From Maribacter sedimenticola (GTDB lineage Bacteria; Bacteroidota; Bacteroidia; Flavobacteriales; Flavobacteriaceae): DNA of 64,000 nt. Position numbers and translations under genes: made by a program. A model generated the notes under the pieces. It was not told where the DNA came from, ran no database searches, and saw nothing but the letters and a program-made list of their open reading frames with translations. Shown here piece after piece: positions 15,058 to 38,898 of this stretch. The stretch covers positions 1 to 64,000 of the forward strand of contig NZ_FZNV01000010.1 of NCBI RefSeq assembly GCF_900188415.1, read 5' to 3'. Position 1 is the stretch's first letter. Each line of letters opens with the position of its first letter.

Positions 15058-15111
15058 CTAATTCTGTTTTACAATTTCAACTAATGAGATTTCAACCTCT
15101 ATACTCTTGCG

Positions 15112-15184
15112 CACGGGAGGAGAGACTCGAACTCCCGACACCTGGTTTTGGAGACCAGTGCTCTACCAACTGAGCTACACCCGT
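15112..15184 (-). tRNA. tRNA-Trp (anticodon CCA)
   Basis: A 73-nt cloverleaf on the minus strand. The D-arm is GCTCAGTTGGTAGAGC, the anticodon arm is CTGGT-CTCCAAA-ACCAG with anticodon CCA, and the T-arm contains TTCGAGT. The acceptor stem has one U-U mismatch. The 3' CCA is not encoded. It sits between tuf and secE, its usual place in Bacteroidota. Confidence 0.95.
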
Positions 15185-16516: not shown

Positions 16517-16527
16517 TACCTTAATTG

Positions 16528-16599
16528 AGCCAATGACGAGAATTGAACTCGTGACCTCTTCCTTACCAAGGAAACGCTCTACCCCTGAGCTACACCGGC
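16528..16599 (-). tRNA. tRNA-Thr (anticodon GGT)
   Basis: A 72-nt cloverleaf. The anticodon arm is TTTCC-TTGGTAA-GGAAG, giving anticodon GGT. The acceptor arm is GCCGGTG with CATTGGC (two G-U pairs). CCA is not encoded. It is the last of four tRNAs before tuf. Confidence 0.95.
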
Positions 16600-16627
16600 G
16601 TAAAGTGTCGAATCTATTTACAAAACA

Positions 16628-16660
16628 GACTCCTGCCTTCGCAGGGACGACATTTCTGTC
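16628..16660. repeat. REP-like palindromic element in a tRNA spacer
   Basis: CCTGC (16632-16636), the loop CTTC, and GCAGG (16641-16645) form a compact hairpin inside a longer imperfect palindrome, AGAC...GTCT. The core TCCTGCCTTCGCAGGGA resembles short palindromic repeats dispersed in many Flavobacteriaceae genomes. Only one copy is in this window, so the repeat status rests on memory of the motif. Confidence 0.35.
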
Positions 16661-16669
16661 TAATTATTG

Positions 16670-16742
16670 AGCGGGAGACCGGGTTCGAACCGGCGACATT
16701 CAGCTTGGAAGGCTGACGCTCTACCAACTGAGCTACTCCCGC
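16670..16742 (-). tRNA. tRNA-Gly (anticodon TCC)
   Basis: A 73-nt cloverleaf. The acceptor GCGGGAG pairs fully with CTCCCGC, and the anticodon arm TCAGC-CTTCCAA-GCTGA gives anticodon TCC. The T-arm contains TTCGAAC. CCA is not encoded. Confidence 0.96.
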
Positions 16743-16789
16743 TTATAACATTACAAAATTTCAATAAAATTACTTTAAAAATAGTTTTG

Positions 16790-16871
<82 letters not shown>

Positions 16872-16898
16872 TCAAACTAATATTTTAAAGAACTTCAG

Positions 16899-16972
16899 AG
16901 CCGATGGAGGGACTCGAACCCACGACCTGCTGATTACAAATCAGCTGCTCTAGCCAGCTGAGCTACATCGGC
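16899..16972 (-). tRNA. tRNA-Thr (anticodon TGT)
   Basis: A 74-nt cloverleaf. The acceptor GCCGATG pairs fully with CATCGGC, and the anticodon arm GCTGA-TTTGTAA-TCAGC gives anticodon TGT. CCA is not encoded. It is the first gene of the tRNA-tuf-rpoBC transcription unit, about 45 bp after its promoter. Confidence 0.96.
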
Positions 16973-26623: not shown

Positions 26624-27205
26624 ATGAAAAAATCATTATTAAGTTTAGCATTGGTTGCCATATTTGGATTAACGGCAACTGCCTCTACCCCAAAGGAAGA
26701 TGAGAAAAAACAAGTAAACGTTAGCGCCAGTACAGTAACATGGAAAGGATATAAAGTTACTGGGGAACATAATGGTACCATTAAACTTAAATCAGGTTTT
26801 TTGGAAATGAACGGTAAAAAATTAACCGGTGGTGAGTTTGTAGTAGATATGACCACTATCTCTTGTAGTGATTTAGAACCTGGACAAGGAAAAGAAAAAC
26901 TGGAAGGTCATTTAAAATCTGGCGACTTTTTTGGAGTGGAAAACCACCCAACCTCCAAATTGGTTTTTACTTCAGTTAAACCAATGAACGATACGTCTTA
27001 TACCGTTACCGGAGACTTGACCATTAAAGGTATTACCAGTCCCGTAACTTTGGTTGTTTCTATGTTTGAGAACAAAGCTACAGCTACGATTAAAGTTGAC
27101 AGAACAAAATTTGATATTAAATATGGCTCTGGTAGCTTCTTTGATAATTTAGGGGATAAAGCTATCTATGATGAGTTTGACCTGGTAGTTGACCTTGCTC
27201 TTTAA
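26624..27205 (+). CDS. YceI family periplasmic protein
   Basis: A 193-residue protein with a signal peptide (KKSLLSLALVAIFGLTATAS). The mature part is a lipocalin-like YceI barrel: STVTWKGYKVTGEHNGTIKLKSG, GGEFVVDMTTI, LKSGDFFGVENHPTSKLVFTS, TGDLTIKGITSPVTL. YceI proteins bind polyprenyl lipids such as ubiquinone-type isoprenoids. It follows the nitroreductase by 29 bp, which fits a joint role in quinone or lipid stress. A good terminator follows. Confidence 0.9.
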   Translation: MKKSLLSLALVAIFGLTATASTPKEDEKKQVNVSASTVTWKGYKVTGEHNGTIKLKSGFLEMNGKKLTGGEFVVDMTTISCSDLEPGQGKEKLEGHLKSGDFFGVENHPTSKLVFTSVKPMNDTSYTVTGDLTIKGITSPVTLVVSMFENKATATIKVDRTKFDIKYGSGSFFDNLGDKAIYDEFDLVVDLAL

Positions 27206-27244
27206 ATTACTATTTAATTTTAGAATTAAATTTTAAACAATTTT

Positions 27245-27280
27245 AAATCCCTTTGATATATTTCAAAGGGATTTTGCTTT
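27245..27280 (+). terminator. Terminator after yceI
   Basis: AAATCCCTTTGA (27245-27256) pairs with TCAAAGGGATTT (27263-27274) around a 6-nt loop, followed by TGCTTTTT. It closes the marR-nitroreductase-yceI unit before the trp promoter. Confidence 0.85.
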
Positions 27281-27294
27281 TTGATACCGTAAAG

Positions 27295-27325
27295 TTTGAA
27301 AGTTTAATTTTCCTTTTTATATTTG
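27295..27325 (+). promoter_or_regulatory. trp operon promoter
   Basis: TTTG (27295-27298), 19 bp, then TATATTTG (27318-27325) is a full match to the Bacteroidota promoter. The start point should fall near 27330, only a few bases before the leader-peptide ATG at 27333, so the leader mRNA would be nearly leaderless. Confidence 0.8.
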
Positions 27326-27332
27326 ATGCTCA

Positions 27333-27389
27333 ATGAAAAATTTAAATGTAAATACTTGGTGGTGGAGCAACTTACGAAAAACATCGTGA
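27333..27389 (+). CDS. trp leader peptide
   Basis: An 18-codon reading frame encoding MKNLNVNTWWWSNLRKTS with three consecutive TGG codons (27357-27365), followed by TGA. It lies just after the trp promoter and 29 bp before a Rho-independent terminator that precedes trpE. Three adjacent Trp codons in such a short frame at this place are the signature of ribosome-mediated attenuation. The peptide itself probably has no other function. Confidence 0.9.
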   Translation: MKNLNVNTWWWSNLRKTS

Positions 27390-27452
27390 GCAAAGCATCA
27401 TTGTAGTAAAACTATATAAAGGCTTGTCATCACGACAAGCCTTCTTTATTTT
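27387..27452 (+). promoter_or_regulatory. trp attenuator: antiterminator arm and terminator hairpin
   Basis: AAGGCTTGTC (27419-27428) pairs with GACAAGCCTT (27434-27443) around ATCAC, followed by CTTTATTTTA: a 10-bp terminator stem ahead of trpE. TGAGCAAAGC (27387-27396), overlapping the leader stop codon, can instead pair with GCTTGTCA (27422-27429) with two one-base bulges, disrupting the terminator. A ribosome stalled at the Trp codons would leave this arm free; one reaching the stop codon would cover it. The alternative pairing is my inference. Confidence 0.8.
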
Positions 27453-27465
27453 ATCAAATTACCTT

Positions 27466-28863
27466 ATGACCTATCAATTTAAAACATACCACAAAAAAAT
27501 ACTGGCGGACACCGTAACCCCTGTAAGTGTTTACTTAAAAATAAGAGACCGTTTTCCAAACAGTATTCTGTTAGAAAGTAGTGATTACCATGCTAACGAC
27601 AATAGTTTTTCTTATATCTGCTGCAATCCTATTGCATCTATAAAAGTTGAAAACGAACATATCTATACACAATTTCCTGATGGCAATACAGAAACAATGG
27701 AAATTACACCAGAAACGGATGTAGTTAATATCATAGATAATTTTAGCAAAACCTTTAAAGCAGATAGTAATGATTTTAAATTTATAAATAACGGTTTATT
27801 CGGTTATATGGCTTATGATGCCGTTCGTTATTTTGAAGATGTAACATTATCTCCCAAACCGGACTCCATTAAAATTCCAGACACCTATTATGCTGTATAT
27901 CAGAATATCATTGCTATAAATCATTTTAAGAACGAGGCATACCTTTTTGCGCATTGTTATGAAGCTGAAAATAATATTCCTGAGTTGGAACAACTTCTTC
28001 ATATCAGAAACTTTGCCACCTATAATTTTAAAATAGAGGGAGATAAGGAATCTAACTTAAAAGATGAGGAATTTAAGGAACATGTTGCACTTGCTAAAAA
28101 ACACTGCCAACGGGGCGATGTTTTTCAGCTGGTATTAAGCAGGCGTTTTTCCCAAGGATTTAAAGGAGATGAGTTTAACGTATATAGAGCTCTACGTTCC
28201 GTAAACCCTTCTCCCTATCTTTTTTATTTTGATTATGGCGATTTTAAAATTTTTGGCAGCTCTCCTGAAGCTCAACTTATTGTCAGTGACGGCAAGGCAG
28301 AGATACACCCAATAGCCGGTACTTTTAAAAGAACGGGCAATGATGAGCAAGATGCACAGCTTGCCAAGGAACTTAAGGCAGATGATAAGGAAAACAGTGA
28401 ACATGTCATGCTTGTGGATTTGGCCAGAAATGATTTAAGCAGGAACGGTAATGTTGTACAAGTGGAAAATTATAGGGAAGTACAGTTTTTCTCTCATGTA
28501 ATCCACTTGGTTTCCAAAGTCACCGGTATGAAAAAGAAAGATATCCCTACCATGAAAGTAGTAGCGGACACCTTCCCGGCAGGCACCTTGAGCGGAGCTC
28601 CAAAACATATGGCCATGCAGCTTATAGAAAAGTATGAAAAAACCAGTAGGGGTTACTACGGTGGCGCTATTGGATTTATGGACTTTAAAGGCAATTTTAA
28701 CCACGCCATAATGATCAGGACCTTTTTAAGCAAAAATCACAAATTACATTATCAAGCGGGTGCGGGACTTGTTGCGGCATCCAACCCAGAAAGCGAGTTA
28801 CAGGAAACATATAATAAATTGGGAGCACTGACCAAAGCTTTGGAATTAGCTGAAGAAATTTAA
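27466..28863 (+). CDS. trpE: Anthranilate synthase component I
   Basis: A 465-residue chorismate-binding enzyme making anthranilate with the TrpG amidotransferase. The N-terminal domain is followed by the chorismate-binding core: VFQLVLSRRFSQGF, FIFGSSPEAQL-like FKIFGSSPEAQLIV, HPIAGTFKRTG, ELKADDKENSEHVMLVDLARNDL, and GAGLVAASNPESELQETYNK. I chose the ATG at 27466 because an upstream start at 27424 would lie inside the attenuator stem. The stop is one base from the trpG start. It is controlled by the leader peptide and attenuator. Confidence 0.95.
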   Translation: MTYQFKTYHKKILADTVTPVSVYLKIRDRFPNSILLESSDYHANDNSFSYICCNPIASIKVENEHIYTQFPDGNTETMEITPETDVVNIIDNFSKTFKADSNDFKFINNGLFGYMAYDAVRYFEDVTLSPKPDSIKIPDTYYAVYQNIIAINHFKNEAYLFAHCYEAENNIPELEQLLHIRNFATYNFKIEGDKESNLKDEEFKEHVALAKKHCQRGDVFQLVLSRRFSQGFKGDEFNVYRALRSVNPSPYLFYFDYGDFKIFGSSPEAQLIVSDGKAEIHPIAGTFKRTGNDEQDAQLAKELKADDKENSEHVMLVDLARNDLSRNGNVVQVENYREVQFFSHVIHLVSKVTGMKKKDIPTMKVVADTFPAGTLSGAPKHMAMQLIEKYEKTSRGYYGGAIGFMDFKGNFNHAIMIRTFLSKNHKLHYQAGAGLVAASNPESELQETYNKLGALTKALELAEEI

Positions 28864-28864
28864 C

Positions 28865-29428
28865 ATGAAGAAAATATTAGTCATAGACAATTACGATAGT
28901 TTTACCTATAACCTAGTCCATTATCTGGAGGAACTTGGTTGCGAGGTAATCGTAAAACGTAACGATCAACTTACATTGGATGAAGTTGACGCTTTTCAGA
29001 AAATAGTCTTATCACCTGGTCCCGGCATACCTGATGAGGCAGGCCTCTTAAAACAGATTATCGCTACCTATGCCCCTACCAAAAGTATTTTTGGCGTATG
29101 CCTTGGCCAACAGGCAATAGCAGAGGTTTTTGGCGGCTCATTAATTAATTTGGACGAGGTATACCACGGTATTGCTACTAAAATAAACATTACTAAAGAG
29201 GACCTGATCTTTACGGACATGCCAAAGGAAATTGAAGTTGGACGCTATCATTCCTGGGTTGTAAATGCCAATTTACCAAATGAACTAGAAGCTACTTCAG
29301 TTGATGAAAACGGACAAGTAATGTCCTTGAGGCATAAAAAATATGATGTTCGCGCAGTTCAATTTCATCCAGAATCAGTACTGACACCACAAGGCAAAAA
29401 GATGTTGGAGAATTGGTTAAACCTGTAA
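28865..29428 (+). CDS. trpG: Anthranilate synthase component II (glutamine amidotransferase)
   Basis: A 187-residue class I glutamine amidotransferase that supplies ammonia to TrpE. It opens with ILVIDNYDSFTYNLVHYLEELG. The nucleophilic cysteine lies in GVCLGQQAIAE (near residue 79), and the His-Glu of the triad in VQFHPESVLTP near the end. It may also serve p-aminobenzoate synthesis (PabA), as is common when one copy exists. The gene is tightly coupled to trpE. Confidence 0.94.
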   Translation: MKKILVIDNYDSFTYNLVHYLEELGCEVIVKRNDQLTLDEVDAFQKIVLSPGPGIPDEAGLLKQIIATYAPTKSIFGVCLGQQAIAEVFGGSLINLDEVYHGIATKINITKEDLIFTDMPKEIEVGRYHSWVVNANLPNELEATSVDENGQVMSLRHKKYDVRAVQFHPESVLTPQGKKMLENWLNL

Positions 29429-29496: not shown

Positions 29497-30492
29497 ATGA
29501 AGGAAACACTAAATAAACTTATTAATCACGAAACATTGTCCAAGGAGGATGCTAAGCATATTCTAGTGAATATTGCAAAAGGTGATTACAACACCAGTCA
29601 GATAGCAGCATTCCTAACCGTATATATGATGCGCAGTATTTCCCTTGAGGAACTGGAAGGATTTAGAGATGCCCTGTTGGATCTTTGCCTGCCAGTTGAT
29701 TTATCTGCCTATAACCCTATTGACCTTTGTGGTACCGGCGGTGATGGTAAGGACACCTTCAATATTTCTACATTGGCATCATTTGTTACGGCCGGTGCAG
29801 GAGTTAAAGTAACCAAACACGGTAATTATGGTGTTTCTTCTAAATGTGGTAGCAGTAATGTTATGGAGTTTTTAGGTATTAAATTTAGTAATGACCCCGG
29901 TTTTTTGGAAAAATGTATCGATCAGGCCGGCATATGCGTTTTACACGCTCCACTTTTTCATCCTGCTATGAAAAATGTAGCACCAATTCGCAAAGATCTG
30001 GCCGTAAAAACATTCTTTAATATGTTGGGTCCTATGGTAAACCCCGCTTTTCCAAAAAACCAAATGGTAGGTGTCTTTAATTTGGAACTTGCTCGTATGT
30101 ATGGTTACCTCTATCAAAAGACCGATAAAAATTTTACCGTCCTACATGCTTTGGACGGTTATGATGAAATTTCATTGACCGGTAACACAAAGACTATTTC
30201 CAACCATACGGAAAGTATGTTGAAACCTTCTGATTTTGGTGTAAGCCAAATTATGCAATCAGATATAGTTGGGGGAGATTCCATTGACACTTCTGCTCAA
30301 ATCTTCCTGAACGTATTACAGGGCAAAGGCACGGAAGCACAGAACAATGTGGTATGTGCCAATGCGGGTATTGCCATTGCTACAGTTGAAGACCTTACAC
30401 CCGTTCAAGGTTTTGAACGCGCAAAGGAATCGTTAATTAGCGGAAAGGGTCTTGCGGCATTGAAAAAAATACAGGAGCTGAGTAGAAATTGA
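29497..30492 (+). CDS. trpD: Anthranilate phosphoribosyltransferase
   Basis: A 331-residue enzyme joining anthranilate to phosphoribosyl pyrophosphate. The PRPP loop is DLCGTGGDGKDTFNIST (near residues 75-91), followed by KHGNYGVSSKCGSSNVMEFLG and RKDLAVKTFFNMLGPMVNP. The length is normal for a stand-alone TrpD. There is a 68-bp gap after trpG without a visible terminator or promoter. Confidence 0.96.
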   Translation: MKETLNKLINHETLSKEDAKHILVNIAKGDYNTSQIAAFLTVYMMRSISLEELEGFRDALLDLCLPVDLSAYNPIDLCGTGGDGKDTFNISTLASFVTAGAGVKVTKHGNYGVSSKCGSSNVMEFLGIKFSNDPGFLEKCIDQAGICVLHAPLFHPAMKNVAPIRKDLAVKTFFNMLGPMVNPAFPKNQMVGVFNLELARMYGYLYQKTDKNFTVLHALDGYDEISLTGNTKTISNHTESMLKPSDFGVSQIMQSDIVGGDSIDTSAQIFLNVLQGKGTEAQNNVVCANAGIAIATVEDLTPVQGFERAKESLISGKGLAALKKIQELSRN

Positions 30493-30539: not shown

Positions 30540-31328
30540 ATGAATATTCTTGATAAAATAGTAGCCGACAAACGGAAAGAAGTAGATTTGAAAAAATCCA
30601 TACTATCCATATCATACCATGAAGCTTCAGCCCTCTTCAAAAGAAGTACAATTTCTTTAGCTAAGGCGCTAAAAATAAGTGATACAGGTATTATATCTGA
30701 GTTTAAACGCAGGTCTCCATCAAAGGAAAGCATTAACCAAAACGCCAACGTTGGCCAAGTGGCAAAAGGGTACGAGAAAGCTGGTGCTTGCGGTATGAGC
30801 GTATTGACGGACATTAAATATTTTGGTGGATCTTTAGAGGATTTGATCTTGGCCAGGGCATCCGTACAACTGCCCTTGCTCCGTAAAGAATTTATTATTA
30901 GTGAATATCAAATTATAGAAGCCAAGGCATTTGGTGCCGATGTTATTTTATTAATAGCCGCTATTTTGACCAAACAAGAAATAAAAAAGTTCTCCGAGCT
31001 TGCAAAAAGTTTAGGCCTAGAGGTGTTACTAGAGGTGCATAATGAGCAAGAGTTGCACAAATCCATAATGCCCAGTTTAGACATGTTAGGAGTAAACAAT
31101 AGAAACCTCAAGAATTTTGAAGTAAGTCTAAATACGAGTAAAACCCTTTCCCAACTAATTCCGGATGACTTTGTAAAAGTTTCCGAAAGTGGTATCAGCT
31201 CCATTGACGCAATCAAAGAACTTAGACCTTACGGATATAAAGGGTTTTTAATTGGTGAAAATTTTATGAAGACCAATGACCCGGGCAAAAGTGCCCAAAC
31301 ATTCATTAAAAATTTAAAAACGCAATGA
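30540..31328 (+). CDS. trpC: Indole-3-glycerol phosphate synthase
   Basis: A 262-residue TIM-barrel enzyme closing the indole ring. Landmarks are MNILDKIVADKRKEVDLKK, ISEFKRRSPSKESIN, SVLTDIKYFGGS, LLRKEFIISEYQI and LGVNNRNLKNFEVSL; the Glu, Lys and Asn residues in these segments are catalytic in the family. Its last codons overlap the trpF start by 4 bp (ATGA), indicating translational coupling. Confidence 0.96.
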   Translation: MNILDKIVADKRKEVDLKKSILSISYHEASALFKRSTISLAKALKISDTGIISEFKRRSPSKESINQNANVGQVAKGYEKAGACGMSVLTDIKYFGGSLEDLILARASVQLPLLRKEFIISEYQIIEAKAFGADVILLIAAILTKQEIKKFSELAKSLGLEVLLEVHNEQELHKSIMPSLDMLGVNNRNLKNFEVSLNTSKTLSQLIPDDFVKVSESGISSIDAIKELRPYGYKGFLIGENFMKTNDPGKSAQTFIKNLKTQ

Positions 31329-31951
31329 AACTCAAAATTTGTGGAATGAAACATAATACGGCCGAGGTTGCACAATTGCGACCAGATTACCTTGGCTTTA
31401 TCTTTTGGGAACATTCCTCAAGATTTTTTGACACTGAAATTCCACAGCTACCCCACCATATTAACAAAGTAGGAGTTTTTGTAGATGCCACACCCAAATA
31501 TATCATTGAAATGGTGAAGAAGCATCAACTTAAGGGAATTCAGCTTCACGGACAGGAAAGCCCAATATATTGTAAAAACATTTCATTGGACCTTATAAAG
31601 GAAAATCAAAAAGTGAGCATTATCAAAGTGTTTTCCATTAAGGATGAGTTTGATTTTGGAGTATTACAGCAGTATGAAAATTGTTGTGATTTTTTTCTGT
31701 TTGATACGAAAGGAAAATTACCGGGAGGCAATGGCTACACCTTTAACTGGTCTGTTCTAAAAAATTATCCGTCTAACAAACCTTATTTTTTAAGTGGAGG
31801 CATTGGACCGAACAACCTGGATAAAATCAAGCAATTTTTAGAATTGCCTGAATCCAATAACTGTTATGCCATTGATATCAATAGTAAATTTGAATTACAA
31901 CCCGGATTAAAAAATATTGAAGAATTACAAAAGTTTAAAAAAGCGCTATGA
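31325..31951 (+). CDS. trpF: Phosphoribosylanthranilate isomerase
   Basis: A 208-residue TIM-barrel isomerase for the Amadori step between TrpD and TrpC. It begins [10 protein letters not shown] (catalytic Cys in the ICGM motif), and shows [37 protein letters not shown] and [10 protein letters not shown]. It is separate from trpC, unlike the fused gene of enterobacteria. It overlaps trpC and trpB by 4 bp each. Confidence 0.94.
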
Positions 31952-33132
31952 ACTATAATGCAGATGAAAAAGGATACTACGGTGAATTCGGTGGTGCCTT
32001 TATCCCTGAAATGTTGTACCCAAACGTAGAGGAATTACGACAAAATTATTTAAAGCTGATGTATGAAGAATCTTTCCAAAAAGAATTTCATCAACTCTTA
32101 AAGGATTATGTGGGCAGGCCTTCTCCCCTATATTATGCAAAACGGCTTTCAGAAAAACATGGCTGTAAAGTCTATCTTAAAAGGGAAGACCTCAACCATA
32201 CCGGCGCCCATAAGGTAAACAATACCATTGGTCAAATCTTAATGGCCCAAAAACTCGGTAAAACAAGAATTATTGCCGAAACCGGTGCCGGACAACATGG
32301 GGTAGCTACCGCTACGGTCTGTGCACTAATGGGTATGGAATGTATTGTGTATATGGGGGAAATAGACATTGCACGCCAAGCACCCAATGTTGCCCGTATG
32401 AAAATGTTGGGTGCAGAAGTAAGACCTGCCAAATCCGGAAGCAGAACCCTTAAGGATGCCACAAATGAAGCAATAAGGGATTGGATCAACAATCCTGTAG
32501 ATACACACTATATCATTGGCTCAGCTATAGGACCACATCCATACCCAGATATGGTAACAAGATTTCAATCCGTAATATCCGAAGAGATAAAATGGCAGTT
32601 GAAAGAGAAAGAAGGTCGTGAAAATCCAGATTACGTGGTAGCCTGTATTGGTGGCGGAAGCAATGCCGCGGGCACCTATTACCATTTTCTCCATGAACCG
32701 GAAGTAGGTATAATTGCGGTTGAAGCTGCTGGTAAGGGAATTCACTCCGGCGAAAGTGCAGCTACGTCTGCTCTTGGAAAAATAGGTATTATCCATGGCT
32801 GTAAAACCATGTTGATGCAAACCGCTGATGGGCAGATTACAGAACCATATTCCATATCTGCAGGACTGGACTATCCTGGGGTAGGACCAATGCATTCACA
32901 CCTATACACGTCTAAAAGGGCAGAGTTCTATTCCGCAACAGATGATGAGGCCATGGCAGCAGGATTGGAACTGTCACAACTGGAAGGCATCATACCTGCC
33001 ATTGAAACCGGCCATGCATTCGCCATTTTCAATCATAAAAAATTCAAGAAAGATGATGTGGTCGTAATAAGTCTATCAGGTAGAGGAGATAAGGATTTGA
33101 ACACATATATTGATTATTTTAAGTTAGCATAA
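31948..33132 (+). CDS. trpB: Tryptophan synthase beta chain
   Basis: A 394-residue PLP enzyme that condenses indole with serine. The PLP lysine is in [13 protein letters not shown] near residue 86. [25 protein letters not shown] and the phosphate-binding [15 protein letters not shown] follow. The length and the start ([18 protein letters not shown]) fit the TrpB1 class that partners TrpA. The gene overlaps trpF by 4 bp and precedes trpA by 11 bp. Confidence 0.97.
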
Positions 33133-33143
33133 CATAACACCTT

Positions 33144-33908
33144 ATGAGCAACAGAATCAACACCAAATTAAAAGAGGACAAAAAACTATTATCCATATAT
33201 TTTACAGCTGGATATCCTTCACTGAACGATACGGTGCAAATCATAGAAGACCTAGAAAAGAACGGGGTAGATATGATCGAAATTGGACTGCCCTTTAGCG
33301 ACCCGTTAGCTGACGGACCTACCATACAGGAAAGCTCAACGGCGGCATTGCACAATGGCATAACCACAGAGATCTTATTTCAACAGATCAAGGATATACG
33401 CAAATCAGTTTCCATACCCTTGATCATTATGGGTTATTTTAACCCGGTATTACAATATGGTGTTGAGGCCTTTTGCCAAAAATGTCAGGAAATTGGCATA
33501 GACGGACTCATTTTACCTGACCTCCCCTTAGATGTCTACCAAGAGGAATATGAGGCTTTGTTCAAAAAATATGGACTGATCAATGTTTTCTTGATTACTC
33601 CACAGACCAGTAACGAGCGTATTGCCGAAATTGACAAGGCCTCTAATGGGTTTATTTATATGGTAAGTACTGCCAGTGTCACTGGATCCAAATCAGGATT
33701 TGGCAAAGAGCAGGAAAATTATTTTGAGCGTATTGCCGCTATGAACCTTAAAAATCCGCAAATAGTTGGTTTTGGAATCAAGGACAAAGAAACGTTTACG
33801 CAAGCTACAAAAACTGCCAAAGGCGCAATTATTGGATCAGCATTTATAAAATTTTTGACCTCAAGTGGGCCTAAATCAATCTCACAATTTGTAAAAAAAA
33901 TTCGCTAA
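33144..33908 (+). CDS. trpA: Tryptophan synthase alpha chain
   Basis: A 254-residue TIM-barrel subunit that releases indole to TrpB. It has FTAGYPSLNDTVQII, DMIEIGLPFSDPLADGPTIQESS (catalytic Glu and Asp in this region), and GFIYMVSTASVTGSKSG. It is the last gene of trpEGDCFBA. No convincing terminator hairpin is visible in the 187 bp that follow. Confidence 0.96.
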   Translation: MSNRINTKLKEDKKLLSIYFTAGYPSLNDTVQIIEDLEKNGVDMIEIGLPFSDPLADGPTIQESSTAALHNGITTEILFQQIKDIRKSVSIPLIIMGYFNPVLQYGVEAFCQKCQEIGIDGLILPDLPLDVYQEEYEALFKKYGLINVFLITPQTSNERIAEIDKASNGFIYMVSTASVTGSKSGFGKEQENYFERIAAMNLKNPQIVGFGIKDKETFTQATKTAKGAIIGSAFIKFLTSSGPKSISQFVKKIR

Positions 33909-34167
33909 ACAAGTTTTCTTTTCAAATAGAATATAGATGTCCGTTTTTAATACCTAACCAAGCTTTACTTAGCCATGAAATTATCATTGTGGTGCTATCC
34001 TACAATTAATAATGTTCTAAAATACACAATTACAAATAGTTAGCTGTAAGATTTTATATACATCTATTTAAATCAAAGGTACATTACCAAAAAAATTGGG
34101 TGTTAATCGAGTAATTGACCTCTCCAACGCCCATACCTCTATTTTTATGTGGTTAAACCAAACCATA

Positions 34168-37100
34168 ATGAAAATAAAACTACCATTAGTCCGTACCAAG
34201 AAAATTGCATTGGGCATCTTTTCCTTATGTCTATTAAGTGCCATTCCCTATTTTTCGGGATCGGGCTTGGATAGTCCAGAACCTATGGGCGCTTTTTTAA
34301 ACGGAGCATTCCCAGATAAATCCAATGCCAGCGATCCCTACATCAGTGTTTTTCCAAATTTGACCTTTGATTCTCCATTGACCTTTACGCCGGTTCCCAA
34401 TACCAACAAATTGGTAGTGGGCCAACGGGACGGAAAAATCTATTGGTTTGAAAATAGGAACGATGTTGCGGGCAAAAATCTTTTAAAAGATTACTCCAAT
34501 GAGGTTGGTGTAGTTTGGGACGGTGGCTTTTTAGGTTTGTCCATTCACCCTGATTTTGGTACTAATGGTAAAAACTATTTTTATCTTTTCTATACGACCA
34601 AAGATGGACAAGGACGAGATTATCCAGATTCCTTCTTAAGTGGTTTTGGTTGCAGCAGGGAAGATTACTGGGGCGGCTTTTTAATTTTAAAAAGAATAGA
34701 GGTAGACCCCGTTTCAATGAATGTTATTGATAACAGTGACCTTGAAATGATAAAAATGCGTATGTTCAGTTCCACTCACCGTGGTGGTGGAATGGCGTTT
34801 GGTGATGATGGTTTTCTGTATATCCCAACAGGTGACCAATCCGCTTATAGCAAACCACAGAACAGTACTACCGATTTAGATGGTGGCGTACTAAGAATAG
34901 ATGTGGACCAGGACCCAAATAAGAGTCATGCCCCAATAAGAAAAATGCCACAAGGAGGCCGTTTCCCAGATGAAATTTCAGGTGTTGGTTATGGTATTCC
35001 AAATGACAATCCTTTTTTAAGTCCAGACGGCAGCAGATTTGAAGAATATTATACCGTAGGCCATAGAAATCCGCATAGAATGACCAAGGATAAACTTACG
35101 GGAACCTTCTATATAGGGGAAATTGGTGAAGGTACACATGAAGAAATCAATATTATTAAACCAGGTAAAAATTACGGCTGGCCTGTCTATGAAGGATACT
35201 ACAACCGTGGTACTTCCTGTACCAATTTATTGGATGGCATGCCACATGAAGGACCGTTGGTGGCATTTCCACGATCGGACGCCAATGCACTTATAGGTGG
35301 CTATGTTTACAGAGGGGCGGCAATGCCGGATTATTATGGAAAATATATCTGTGCAGATTATGGCGTAGGTGAAGAAATATGGGCAGTGGACATTGTAACG
35401 GGAGCGTACGAGACAATTACCCAATTCTCGCCCACAAATATTATTTCATTTGGCGAAGACCATAATGGGGAGCTATACCTGCTCAGCCAAGGTAATAATG
35501 TAAAATTGTATAAGCTTAGACAACAAGGCGAATTAGAGGGAAGTGTACCTGAACTATTATCAGAAACTGGAGCTTTTACCAATTTACAGACATTGGAAAC
35601 AAATTCAGGAATATTACCCTATGAACTAATTGAATCCTTTTGGTCCGATGGTGCCGAGAAAAAACGTTGGATGGCCGTTCCAAATAACGGAACGCACAAC
35701 ACACCATCAGAGCAAATTTCTTTTTCCGAAAATGGTGATTGGCAATTTCCGGTAGGCAGTGTTCTAATAAAACATTTTGAGCTGCCCATAGATGAAAACA
35801 ATCCGTCATTGACCAAGCGATTGGAAACCAGGTTTTCCATAAAGGCCAGTACAGGGTCATTTTATTTTTTAACCTATAAATGGAACGACCAACAGACCGA
35901 TGCCGTATTACTACCCAATGGCCTAGATGAAAACATTACCATTACCAAAACAGATGGTAGTACCGCCACACAAAAATGGAGCTACCCGTCTACACAGGAT
36001 TGTATTTCATGTCATAACCCTGCAACCGGTGGTGCCCTAGGTACCAATACTAGATATTTGAACAGTGATTATACTTACCAAAAAACAGGGCGTACCGCAA
36101 ACCAATTGGTAACACTCAGTCATTTAGGTGTGCTAAACGAAACCATTACGGATGCAGCTACAGTTGATTTTCAAACATATAGGGCATTAGACGACCCATT
36201 GGCTTCCTTAGATGAAAAAGCAAGGTCATATATGGACTTAAATTGTGCGTATTGCCATAGGCCCGGTGGTACGGGAGACAGGGCCCGGTTTGACCTTAGA
36301 CTGTTCAACACTCTAGCCCAGACCGGTCTTTTTGATGCGGGTACCAATACACCCATAGGTATACCTGGAGAACGTATTTTTGTACCAGGTAATGCCGATG
36401 AATCTATTATATTCCACAGAACAAATTCGGTCGACCCTAGTATTATGATGCCCCCAATTTCCAAAAACCAGGTTGATGCCAAGGCGGTGCAACTCATAAG
36501 GGATTGGATCGATCAAATGGACCCCGAACCTTGCGGAATACGTAATTTAACTGAAGATTTTAGCAACACCTCCGCTAATGAATGGACTACATCAGGAACG
36601 GCATCTAAGGGTACTTTCGTAATAGCCGACCCCACGGCACAGACTTCCTCCGGTATTCTAACACAACCAGAGGACGATCATAGCGCTACGGATAACAATG
36701 CGTTCTTCACCGCGACCAACACATCCGTGGGCGTTAATGATGTGGACGGAGGAGTAGCCATTGCAACTTCCCCTACCTATACCATTGTAGACGAATCGGA
36801 ACTGTCTATCTGGTATTTCTTTGGACAACGGGATGCCGGTGACGATAACGGTGATTATTTTCTTTTGGAATACTCAATTGACGGTGGGGCTACCTATACA
36901 ACTTTGGCATCTTATGGTGATGAGACCGTAGTGGCAAGTTGGACCAATGCTACCGCTATTATTCCTTCAAATTCCAACTTGGTCGTTAGGATATCCGCAG
37001 CTGACGGACCTAATGATGGCGATATAGTGGAAGCAGGTATTGATGACTTTACCATTACATCAATTTGCCCGGACCCCATAAGGGTCACGGCGGTTGAATT

Positions 37101-38898
37101 GACCCCTGAAACATTAAATTTAATTGAAGGAACAACGCAACAATTGAATGCCCTTGTAAGCCCTGCAGATGCCGATGATATCTCGGTAACTTGGTCCTCC
37201 GACAACAATGACATTGCAACTGTGGATTCTAACGGTGTAGTAAATGCCATTCAGGAAGGGACTGCCACCGTTACGGTAACGACCAATGACGGTCAATTTA
37301 TGGACACCACTGTAATTTCCGTTGAACGTGCCCAAATTCCAGTAACCGGTATTTCCCTTTCACTAGAAACATTGACACTTATCCAAGGCCAAGCCACCAC
37401 CCTAATCGCTACGGTGACCCCACAAAATGCAGATGAAAAAGAGGTCATATGGACTACGAACAACCCACAGGTTGCTACAGTGGACAATAATGGCAAGGTA
37501 ACGGCAACAGGTTTGGGAGAAGCCAGCGTTACTGTAACGACCGTGGACGGAGGCTTTACGGCATCTACCTTTATTACGGTAAACTCTGCACCCAATGTTG
37601 AAATGTTAATTGCCCCAAACCCTGCAGATTATGTGGTTTATGTATACTTTGGGTATTCTGAGCCTTTGAACATCACAACCTTACATATTTATGACCAGAA
37701 CAACAATCTTGTAAAAACATTTACCGATCCGGCATCTATCTTGGATGGTGAAAACTATAGATTGCCCATAGCAGATTTACCCATTGGAAACTATACGATA
37801 GAAGGTGTAAGTACCATAGGTAATTATCAAAAAACCTTAAGCATTTCCAGGGAAAGTATTTCCGTAACGGGAATTACGCTTAGCTTACCGAACGCAAATG
37901 TACAGGTGGGCAATGAATTAACGTTGATACCTACAATAACTCCCTCAAATGCAACCGATAAAACGGTACTATGGAATTCTGACAATTCCAATATTGTAAC
38001 CGTGGATAGCTCTGGTAATATTACAGGCGTATCCGAAGGTATTGCCACTATAACGGCAACAACGGTAGACGGAAATTTTACGGCTACAAGCACGGTGAAC
38101 GTAAGTGCCAACCCCGTGAACAATGTAACTATATTAATGGCCCCTACACCAGCGGATTATGTGGTATATGTATTTTTTGATGCATTGGAACCTTTGGAAA
38201 TAACCGCCTTGCGTATTTATGATGACAATAACATCTTGGTCAAAATTTTTGATGACCCTGCATTGGTATTGGTAGAAGGCGATAACTATAGGCTTATTAT
38301 CAATGATCTGCCAGTGGGTGTTTATACTGTAGAAGGTGTGAGCACTACAGGAACGTACAGCAAGCAACTTACCATAGCCCGTGATAATATACCGGTAACA
38401 GGTTTGACCTTAGGAATAACCACGGCCAATATGATCGTTGGGGAACAATTGACCATACCGGCAACTATTGTTCCATCAGATGCAACGGACAAGACCGTTA
38501 TCTGGAGCTCAAGTGACGAGACAATTGCTACGGTAAATGAATTTGGAACGGTAACAGCGTTATCACAAGGAGAAATAACCATTACGGCGATAACTGCATA
38601 TGGAGATTATGAAGCAACATCTACCATTACCGTAGAGCCCATAATAATGCTAATTGCCCCTAACCCGGCAACGTTTGTGATCTACGTATATTTTTATTCC
38701 CCCAACCCCATGGAAATATCGACTATAAATATTTATGATGCTATGGGAAGATTGGTCAAGACCTTTAATGACCCTGAAGCCACTTTGGTTGAAGGTAATA
38801 ATTATAGGTTATTGGTAGAGGAATTGCCCTCAGGTTATTATTTTGTTGAGGGTGTTACGTCATTGGGGAATTATCAAAAACAAATTGTAATTGAATAA
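34168..38898 (+). CDS. Secreted PQQ-type sugar dehydrogenase / di-haem cytochrome fusion with Big2 and sorting-like repeats
   Basis: A 1576-residue exported protein. A signal peptide (IALGIFSLCLLSAIPYF) precedes a glucose/sorbosone dehydrogenase propeller (residues about 45-440; GHRNPHRMT and GEIGEGTHEEINIIKPGKNYGWP). A cytochrome part follows with two haem c motifs, CISCH at residue 612 and CAYCH at 693, resembling the SO2930/HNE_0200 family. A beta-sandwich then spans about 800-965. Four Big2 domains start near residues 972, 1057, 1232 and 1408. Three of them are each followed by a module resembling a T9SS C-terminal signal (starts 1146, 1322, 1494), the last at the protein end. The function inferred is oxidation of sugars at the cell surface, with electrons passed to haem. 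I chose the start at 34168 because only from there is the signal peptide normal. Confidence 0.85.
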   Translation: MKIKLPLVRTKKIALGIFSLCLLSAIPYFSGSGLDSPEPMGAFLNGAFPDKSNASDPYISVFPNLTFDSPLTFTPVPNTNKLVVGQRDGKIYWFENRNDVAGKNLLKDYSNEVGVVWDGGFLGLSIHPDFGTNGKNYFYLFYTTKDGQGRDYPDSFLSGFGCSREDYWGGFLILKRIEVDPVSMNVIDNSDLEMIKMRMFSSTHRGGGMAFGDDGFLYIPTGDQSAYSKPQNSTTDLDGGVLRIDVDQDPNKSHAPIRKMPQGGRFPDEISGVGYGIPNDNPFLSPDGSRFEEYYTVGHRNPHRMTKDKLTGTFYIGEIGEGTHEEINIIKPGKNYGWPVYEGYYNRGTSCTNLLDGMPHEGPLVAFPRSDANALIGGYVYRGAAMPDYYGKYICADYGVGEEIWAVDIVTGAYETITQFSPTNIISFGEDHNGELYLLSQGNNVKLYKLRQQGELEGSVPELLSETGAFTNLQTLETNSGILPYELIESFWSDGAEKKRWMAVPNNGTHNTPSEQISFSENGDWQFPVGSVLIKHFELPIDENNPSLTKRLETRFSIKASTGSFYFLTYKWNDQQTDAVLLPNGLDENITITKTDGSTATQKWSYPSTQDCISCHNPATGGALGTNTRYLNSDYTYQKTGRTANQLVTLSHLGVLNETITDAATVDFQTYRALDDPLASLDEKARSYMDLNCAYCHRPGGTGDRARFDLRLFNTLAQTGLFDAGTNTPIGIPGERIFVPGNADESIIFHRTNSVDPSIMMPPISKNQVDAKAVQLIRDWIDQMDPEPCGIRNLTEDFSNTSANEWTTSGTASKGTFVIADPTAQTSSGILTQPEDDHSATDNNAFFTATNTSVGVNDVDGGVAIATSPTYTIVDESELSIWYFFGQRDAGDDNGDYFLLEYSIDGGATYTTLASYGDETVVASWTNATAIIPSNSNLVVRISAADGPNDGDIVEAGIDDFTITSICPDPIRVTAVELTPETLNLIEGTTQQLNALVSPADADDISVTWSSDNNDIATVDSNGVVNAIQEGTATVTVTTNDGQFMDTTVISVERAQIPVTGISLSLETLTLIQGQATTLIATVTPQNADEKEVIWTTNNPQVATVDNNGKVTATGLGEASVTVTTVDGGFTASTFITVNSAPNVEMLIAPNPADYVVYVYFGYSEPLNITTLHIYDQNNNLVKTFTDPASILDGENYRLPIADLPIGNYTIEGVSTIGNYQKTLSISRESISVTGITLSLPNANVQVGNELTLIPTITPSNATDKTVLWNSDNSNIVTVDSSGNITGVSEGIATITATTVDGNFTATSTVNVSANPVNNVTILMAPTPADYVVYVFFDALEPLEITALRIYDDNNILVKIFDDPALVLVEGDNYRLIINDLPVGVYTVEGVSTTGTYSKQLTIARDNIPVTGLTLGITTANMIVGEQLTIPATIVPSDATDKTVIWSSSDETIATVNEFGTVTALSQGEITITAITAYGDYEATSTITVEPIIMLIAPNPATFVIYVYFYSPNPMEISTINIYDAMGRLVKTFNDPEATLVEGNNYRLLVEELPSGYYFVEGVTSLGNYQKQIVIE
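37336..38895 (+). repeat. Three in-frame coding repeats, each a Big2 domain plus a sorting-like module
   Basis: Units at 37336-37857, 37858-38388 and 38389-38895 (about 507-531 bp). Each encodes a Big2 domain (starting near xPVTGITLS, with TWSS/VTVDxxGxVTA strands) followed by a module of the form LIAPNPADYVVYVYF, IYDxxxxLVKTFxDP, GxNYRL, LPxGxYTVEGVSxxGNYQKQ. The third unit supplies the C-terminus. DNA identity has drifted, so the duplication is not recent. Confidence 0.85.

Follow-up and report, generated by a model that had tools for sequence, protein, structure and literature searches.

A Bacteroid-trp (RF01692) leader ahead of trpEGDCFBA in Maribacter sedimenticola: a probable ribosome-mediated attenuator with a predicted near-leaderless start

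The trp leader of E. coli (trpL) works through three alternative pairings of its RNA, 1:2, 2:3 and 3:4, with two Trp codons in the leader peptide, these being located in segment 1. Attenuators whose leader peptide lies at the very start of the RNA have also been described. The trp leader peptide of Sinorhizobium meliloti (trpL/rnTrpL) is leaderless, the RNA beginning with the ATG (available text of PMC7298713), and the ilvBNC attenuator of Corynebacterium glutamicum has been discussed as a leaderless mRNA (available text of PMC11857589). Among Bacteroidota, the RNA family Bacteroid-trp, catalogued in Rfam as RF01692, was listed by Weinberg et al. 2010 (available text of PMC2864571). It has been noted 5' of the trp operon of F. 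psychrophilum (available text of PMC6414381), a species in which there are strong clues for leader-peptide attenuation 5' of amino-acid operons (PMC9723704).

Here, a stretch of 64,000 nucleotides of Maribacter sedimenticola (contig NZ_FZNV01000010.1, positions 1 to 64,000; the window in what follows) was analysed, following an earlier note that had read a trp attenuator from the letters of the DNA. The attenuator, at 27295..27466, is a member of the known family RF01692. The covariance model matches with 54.4 bits against a gathering score of 49, over model positions 1-131 of 131; the match ends at 27428 and is followed at 27466 by the start of trpE, placing it upstream of the trp genes, and the Trp-rich leader peptide expected of the family is present as MKNLNVNTWWWSNLRKTS. 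The parts that the earlier note had listed are all found, in the order given there (Table 1): a promoter with both boxes, an 18-residue peptide with three adjacent Trp codons, an antiterminator arm lying over the stop codon of the peptide, and a 10-bp terminator ahead of trpEGDCFBA. The observation is real, has a good explanation and is largely of a known kind. What goes beyond the Rfam model is a modestly interesting twist, consisting of a near-leaderless start and a model of switching by a loop-directed antiterminator, with the mechanism inferred from sequence comparison and folding. We consider it highly probable that an RF01692-family, ribosome-mediated transcription attenuator controls trpEGDCFBA, with its RNA starting 2-3 nt 5' of the leader AUG.

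Table 1. Features of the trp leader and operon, in window coordinates.
Feature	Position	Strand	Basis
-33-like promoter element TTTG, 19 nt 5' of the -7 box	27295..27298	+	sequence
RF01692 match, starting inside the promoter and ending at the 5' arm of the terminator	27313..27428	+	covariance model
-7 box TATATTTG (Bacteroidota sigma-A TAnnTTTG)	27318..27325	+	sequence; box assignable in relatives
Predicted transcription start, 2-3 nt 5' of the ATG	27330..27331	+	inferred from box-to-start spacing
trpL leader peptide, 18 aa, MKNLNVNTWWWSNLRKTS, ATG at 27333, stop TGA 27387-27389	27333..27389	+	sequence; frame and Trp run conserved
Long leader stem, pairing 27353-27364, which lies across the Trp codons, with 27396-27408	27353..27408	+	folding
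Three adjacent Trp codons TGG TGG TGG	27357..27365	+	sequence
Protector hairpin CUUACGA 27371-27377 with UCGUGAG 27384-27390, hiding segment 2	27371..27390	+	folding
Antiterminator UCGUGA 27384-27389 with UCACGA 27430-27435, located in the terminator loop and the beginning of the 3' arm	27384..27435	+	folding; complementarity in relatives
Intrinsic terminator stem, 10 bp, AAGGCTTGTC/GACAAGCCTT, loop AUCAC	27419..27443	+	sequence, folding
T-rich tract 3' of the terminator	27444..27452	+	sequence
trpE	27466..28863	+	NCBIfam match, ATG 27466
trpG	28865..29428	+	NCBIfam match
trpD	29497..30492	+	NCBIfam match
trpC	30540..31328	+	NCBIfam match
trpF	31325..31951	+	NCBIfam match
trpB	31948..33132	+	NCBIfam match
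trpA	33144..33908	+	NCBIfam match

The seven downstream ORFs follow the order trpE, G, D, C, F, B, A by their NCBIfam matches, with the scores of trpE and trpF lying under the curated cut-offs shown and those of the other five passing at least one cut-off. The upstream gene ends at 27205. A separate 12-bp terminator-like hairpin, AAATCCCTTTGA/TCAAAGGGATTT, is located 3' of that gene at 27245-27274. The same window holds a tRNA-Trp gene (anticodon CCA) at 15111-15184 on the minus strand, at a distance of about 12 kb from the operon, and further tRNA genes (Thr, Gly, Tyr, Thr) at 16527-16972. On the other side, 3' of trpA, there is an ORF of 1600 aa (34096-38898, plus strand) with similar segments repeated, which to the eye looks like a secreted protein.

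Matches to RF01692 at E<=0.001 are found in 30 of the 36 genomes of the genus (own genome counted), and in 208 of 299 genomes of the family. A draw of 395 genomes from the class gave matches in 27, and 13 of those 27 belong to the same family. The loci taken from the family (L002-L071) are a non-random choice, these being the 30 top-scoring and then 20 plus 20 picked by hand from those listed. A second sample was fetched by TrpE, independently of the RNA, and comprises the best 80 of 588 confirmed stretches, among which the closest TrpE has 85% identity and comes from Maribacter. Three of these (L138, L201, L204) have too short an upstream sequence. Conservation of the leader frame, which the earlier note had set as a check on its reading, is borne out: 75 of the 77 usable trpE loci have a short frame that contains adjacent Trp codons, and 74 of those 75 have an ATG within reach, the upstream stretches of L125 and L189 being the two without adjacent Trp codons. 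The dimensions of the leader are likewise conserved. The TGG run is three codons long in 88/94 loci and two in 6/94, the distance from the ATG to the first TGG is 24 nt in 79/94, and the distance from the last TGG to CGUGA is 19 nt in 62/94.

The distance between the -7 box and the leader ATG is 7 nt. In F. johnsoniae, the start lies 4-5 nt from the -7 box in promoters deemed probable, and the -33 element is weakly defined (PMC6847099); in F. psychrophilum the -7 box is located at -12 to -5 (available text of PMC9723704). Given the 7-nt gap and the reported box-to-start spacing of 4-5 nt, the predicted 5' UTR is 2-3 nt long. This agrees with the earlier note, which had placed the ATG only a few bases after the expected start, and the gap is 5-7 nt in all 29 of the other genus loci fetched. 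The box distance here and in the genus supports the prediction of a near-leaderless start. Elsewhere in the same genome TATATTTG is found 3-9 nt 5' of an ATG at 53 sites, as compared to 33 for the reversed control pattern; 30 of these 53 sites were fetched, and none of them showed another leader peptide containing consecutive copies of one amino acid. Bacteroidota mRNAs are reported to be without Shine-Dalgarno sites (available text of PMC6847099). The statement rests on that source because the assembly, although rated 99.99% complete, gave no match to its own 16S rRNA for a check of the anti-Shine-Dalgarno sequence.

The best surviving alternative is that the attenuator works on a leadered RNA, started further upstream from another promoter, with the close TATATTTG being incidental. 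The RNA start in the window is a prediction, and TANNTTTG is common by chance: in 3116 bases it is observed 5 times against 5.3 expected, so that the box alone is no better than chance. Leaderless mRNAs make up only 5.5% of those mapped in F. psychrophilum (available text of PMC9723704). Among the genera of the family sampled through the RNA search, with loci partly picked by score, the gap is long (>9 nt) in 42 of 64 and short in 22, L055 being omitted from the 100 loci of this count for its apparent GTG start (it lies 5 nt 3' of a TACATTTG box). Against a leadered RNA, a -7-type box can be assigned 4-24 nt 5' of the leader ATG in 72 of 75 trpE-anchored relatives, the exceptions being L167, L174 and L200, where the ATG or the box is unassignable. 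If the box was followed by more than one in-frame ATG, the gap was measured to the first. Of these 72 relatives, 31 have a gap of 4-9 nt and 41 one of 11-24 nt; it is never below 4 nt, which is the smallest gap that keeps the AUG intact at a 4-nt box-to-start spacing. Furthermore, TATATTTG is the only TAnnTTTG in the interval that separates the leader from the upstream gene (27206-27332), and the hairpin at 27245-27274 also speaks against a more distant promoter. We regard a leadered start in this window as unlikely.

The two gap classes, the short one including Maribacter (L126) and the long one Flavobacterium species such as those at L159-L164, differ in more than length. The long-gap form has an A-rich 5' UTR, with A at -4 in 36/41 and at -3 in 27/41, and the short-gap form does not (A at -3 in 11/31); in F. 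johnsoniae, initiation has been reported to be favoured by an adenine at -3 (available text of PMC6847099). On one quick TrpE tree, with the classes cut at 9/11 nt, there are 10 changes between them, of which 6 are forced by starred branches; without the four rows of 9-12 nt there are 7 changes, 4 of them forced. The two forms thus appear to interchange repeatedly on the TrpE tree, with at least four to six changes, a count that depends on the cut.

Returning to the near-leaderless attenuator, we infer the following order of events, the start site, the translation of the peptide, the response to Trp and the kinetic order all being predicted. Transcription would start 2-3 nt 5' of the leader AUG, and the ribosome would initiate almost at the 5' end of the RNA, where a Shine-Dalgarno site has no room. 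With ample Trp-tRNA, the ribosome would pass the three Trp codons, reach the UGA and cover UCGUGA (segment 2), on which the terminator would form and transcription of trp would end. With Trp-tRNA in short supply, the ribosome would stall on the Trp codons, covering the upstream partner CUUACG; as the terminator loop and the first part of the 3' arm emerge from the polymerase, the freed segment 2 would pair with them, and the operon would be read. If the leader is not translated, the leader hairpin would hold segment 2, and the terminator could form. The proposal of ribosome-mediated attenuation made in the earlier note is supported, in sequence and in models of folding, by the conserved leader frame with its WWW, by the alternative structures and by the terminator.

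It could be asked whether Trp is sensed in some other way, by TRAP, a Trp repressor, a T-box or a Trp-binding RNA, with the leader peptide being a by-product. No evidence in support of this was found, and it leaves room only for unknown regulators. The TrpBP (TRAP, mtrB) family has no match in the genome of M. sedimenticola, with a positive control in Bacillus subtilis, and the same is true of the Trp repressor (trpR) family, with positive controls in E. coli and B. subtilis. No T-box is found in the window at the gathering score, nor at E<=1 in 27200-27520. The earlier note had seen neither TRAP nor T-box elements, and these searches give the same answer. In addition, the Trp codons and the leader frame are conserved. 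Another sensor is in our judgement very improbable.

A central part of attenuation by the ribosome is the pair of mutually exclusive structures, which change together in relatives. UCGUGA, which overlaps the leader stop codon, has alternative partners, either the upstream leader arm or the terminator loop and 3' arm; in the latter case there is a side pairing of AAGC (27393-27396) with GCUU (27422-27425). The earlier note had proposed a search for covariation upstream of trpE, and such covariation is present: across 16 diverged representatives of the class, chosen by hand for their divergence, the loop and segment 2 co-vary, as illustrated by GAACAGC with GCUGUUC (L116), GUCGUAAG with CUUGCGGC (L101) and CGUGAUC with GAUUACG (L120). 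When terminators were swapped among these 16 leaders, only one in 10000 permutations reached the observed summed pairing energy. Taken singly, the cases are weaker: only 4 of the 16 spacers have their own terminator core in first place, and the window comes 5th, L119 9th, L117 12th and L181 13th. Compared to mononucleotide-shuffled spacers, 81 of 95 loci reach p<=0.05 and 14 miss it. A tabulation across loci of the base after CGUGA against the facing loop base gave no clear association.

The protector hairpin also varies in a compensated way: among 61 distinct sequences, one pair of its arm is C-G 24 times and U-A 18 times. Here 75% of the cells are paired in register, as against 59% when slid by -3. 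The support for the protector is weaker than that for the antiterminator, because the slid arm still pairs 59% of cells.

It is worth adding that the terminator stem is nearly invariant, with GGCUUGUC in 70 of 76 loci, and that the arm GGCTTGTC, again in 70 of 76, is conserved beyond the apparent need of a plain terminator. The antiterminator explains only part of this invariance.

The RNA of the window was folded from 27330 with ribosome masks and followed along the path of the polymerase. When the Trp codons are masked, UCGUGA pairs with UCACGA (-16.2 kcal/mol) for polymerase positions 27436-27439. Moving the mask to the stop codon blocks this pairing, and at 27439 the terminator stem has begun to form; a weak pairing of the Trp codons with the terminator region is also predicted. 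With no ribosome, segment 2 lies inside the protector hairpin, and with the polymerase at 27433-27436 the Trp codons (27359-27365) transiently pair with 27427-27433, in the terminator arm and loop; by 27439 this has been displaced, and the long leader stem together with the terminator stem is the best structure. The long stem is seen in the untranslated folds with the polymerase at 27415, 27439 and beyond, and is consistent with a stem of the RF01692 consensus. The untranslated state in the window folds is thus not clean. After completion of the 3' arm (27443), every state folded favours the terminator in stability (with a stalled ribosome, -19.7 to -22.1 kcal/mol as compared to -16.2 for the antiterminator). 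In this model antitermination must therefore be kinetic, with the antiterminator forming first.

The same protocol was applied to 94 loci, with 5 nt of the 3' arm out and an antiterminator defined as at least 4 pairs. L167 was dropped from the 95 for want of an ATG, and the terminator of L109 was placed by hand, as it was in the swap test. The antiterminator is predicted in 93 loci with the ribosome stalled (the sole exception being L117), in 2 with the ribosome at the stop codon, and in 26 without a ribosome. In five runs with shuffled spacers, the corresponding numbers are 24-32, 11-16 and 16-32, and in five runs with shuffled terminators 21-29, 3-11 and 5-7. The full pattern of terminator, antiterminator and terminator for no ribosome, ribosome stalled and ribosome at stop is found in 55 of 94. 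Folding and comparison together point to exclusive antiterminator and protector pairings that depend on the position of the ribosome, with exceptions, as in the 26 of 94 loci that form the antiterminator without one.

An intrinsic terminator (27419-27452) stands ahead of the first gene, and AT-rich spacers often contain terminator stems and short ORFs, so that one might suppose a plain terminator with a chance ORF and no regulation; the recurrence of the arrangement across genus, family and class, and an antiterminator complementarity in excess of shuffled controls, leave this next to no probability.

An attenuator requires a ribosome that loads without delay and stays abreast of the polymerase. 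In this respect the gap classes form a natural comparison within the same switch, whose predicted 5' UTR measures 0-5 nt in some genera, and in others is A-rich and about 6-20 nt long; as a result the timing of Shine-Dalgarno-free initiation against transcription could be tested with one reporter. A broader picture would have a leaderless trp attenuator in about one third of Flavobacteriaceae genera (22/64), repeatedly gained and lost against the A-rich leadered form, with ribosome loading tied to the 5' end as it leaves the polymerase, and with the released leader RNA, a ready-made leaderless mRNA bearing the nearly invariant terminator stem, having a second role in trans as in Sinorhizobium; we offer this as a long shot.

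In the literature, as far as its available text goes and supplements aside, we found no description of a loop-directed antiterminator of a Bacteroidota trp leader, nor of a leaderless start of such a leader or its exchange with a leadered form. The closest described system is Bacteroid-trp itself, which like the window is from Bacteroidota, upstream of trp genes and with a Trp-rich leader peptide (available text of PMC2864571). The RF01692 model lacks both the terminator and the antiterminator pairing for this member, and the present analysis supplies the antiterminator that it omits; a leaderless start finds no mention in the available text of its description (PMC2864571, supplements aside). 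The resemblance to S. meliloti rnTrpL lies in the leaderless trp leader peptide, predicted to be near-leaderless in the window; the differences are in phylum and in the RNA, which is its own. The terminated RNA of S. meliloti acts in trans (available text of PMC7298713). The C. glutamicum ilvBNC attenuator, discussed as a leaderless mRNA, would resemble the window in its start, and differs in concerning branched-chain amino acids and in belonging to another phylum (available text of PMC11857589).

The comparison with the enterobacterial trp attenuator, which the earlier note had drawn as a similar logic in an RNA of its own, holds for this member of RF01692. As in E. coli trpL, there is a 1:2, 2:3, 3:4 logic with the Trp codons in segment 1. 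Unlike E. coli trpL, the window has a predicted near-leaderless start without a Shine-Dalgarno site, three Trp codons and an unrelated RNA, and the predicted partner of its segment 2 is chiefly the terminator loop together with the beginning of the 3' arm.
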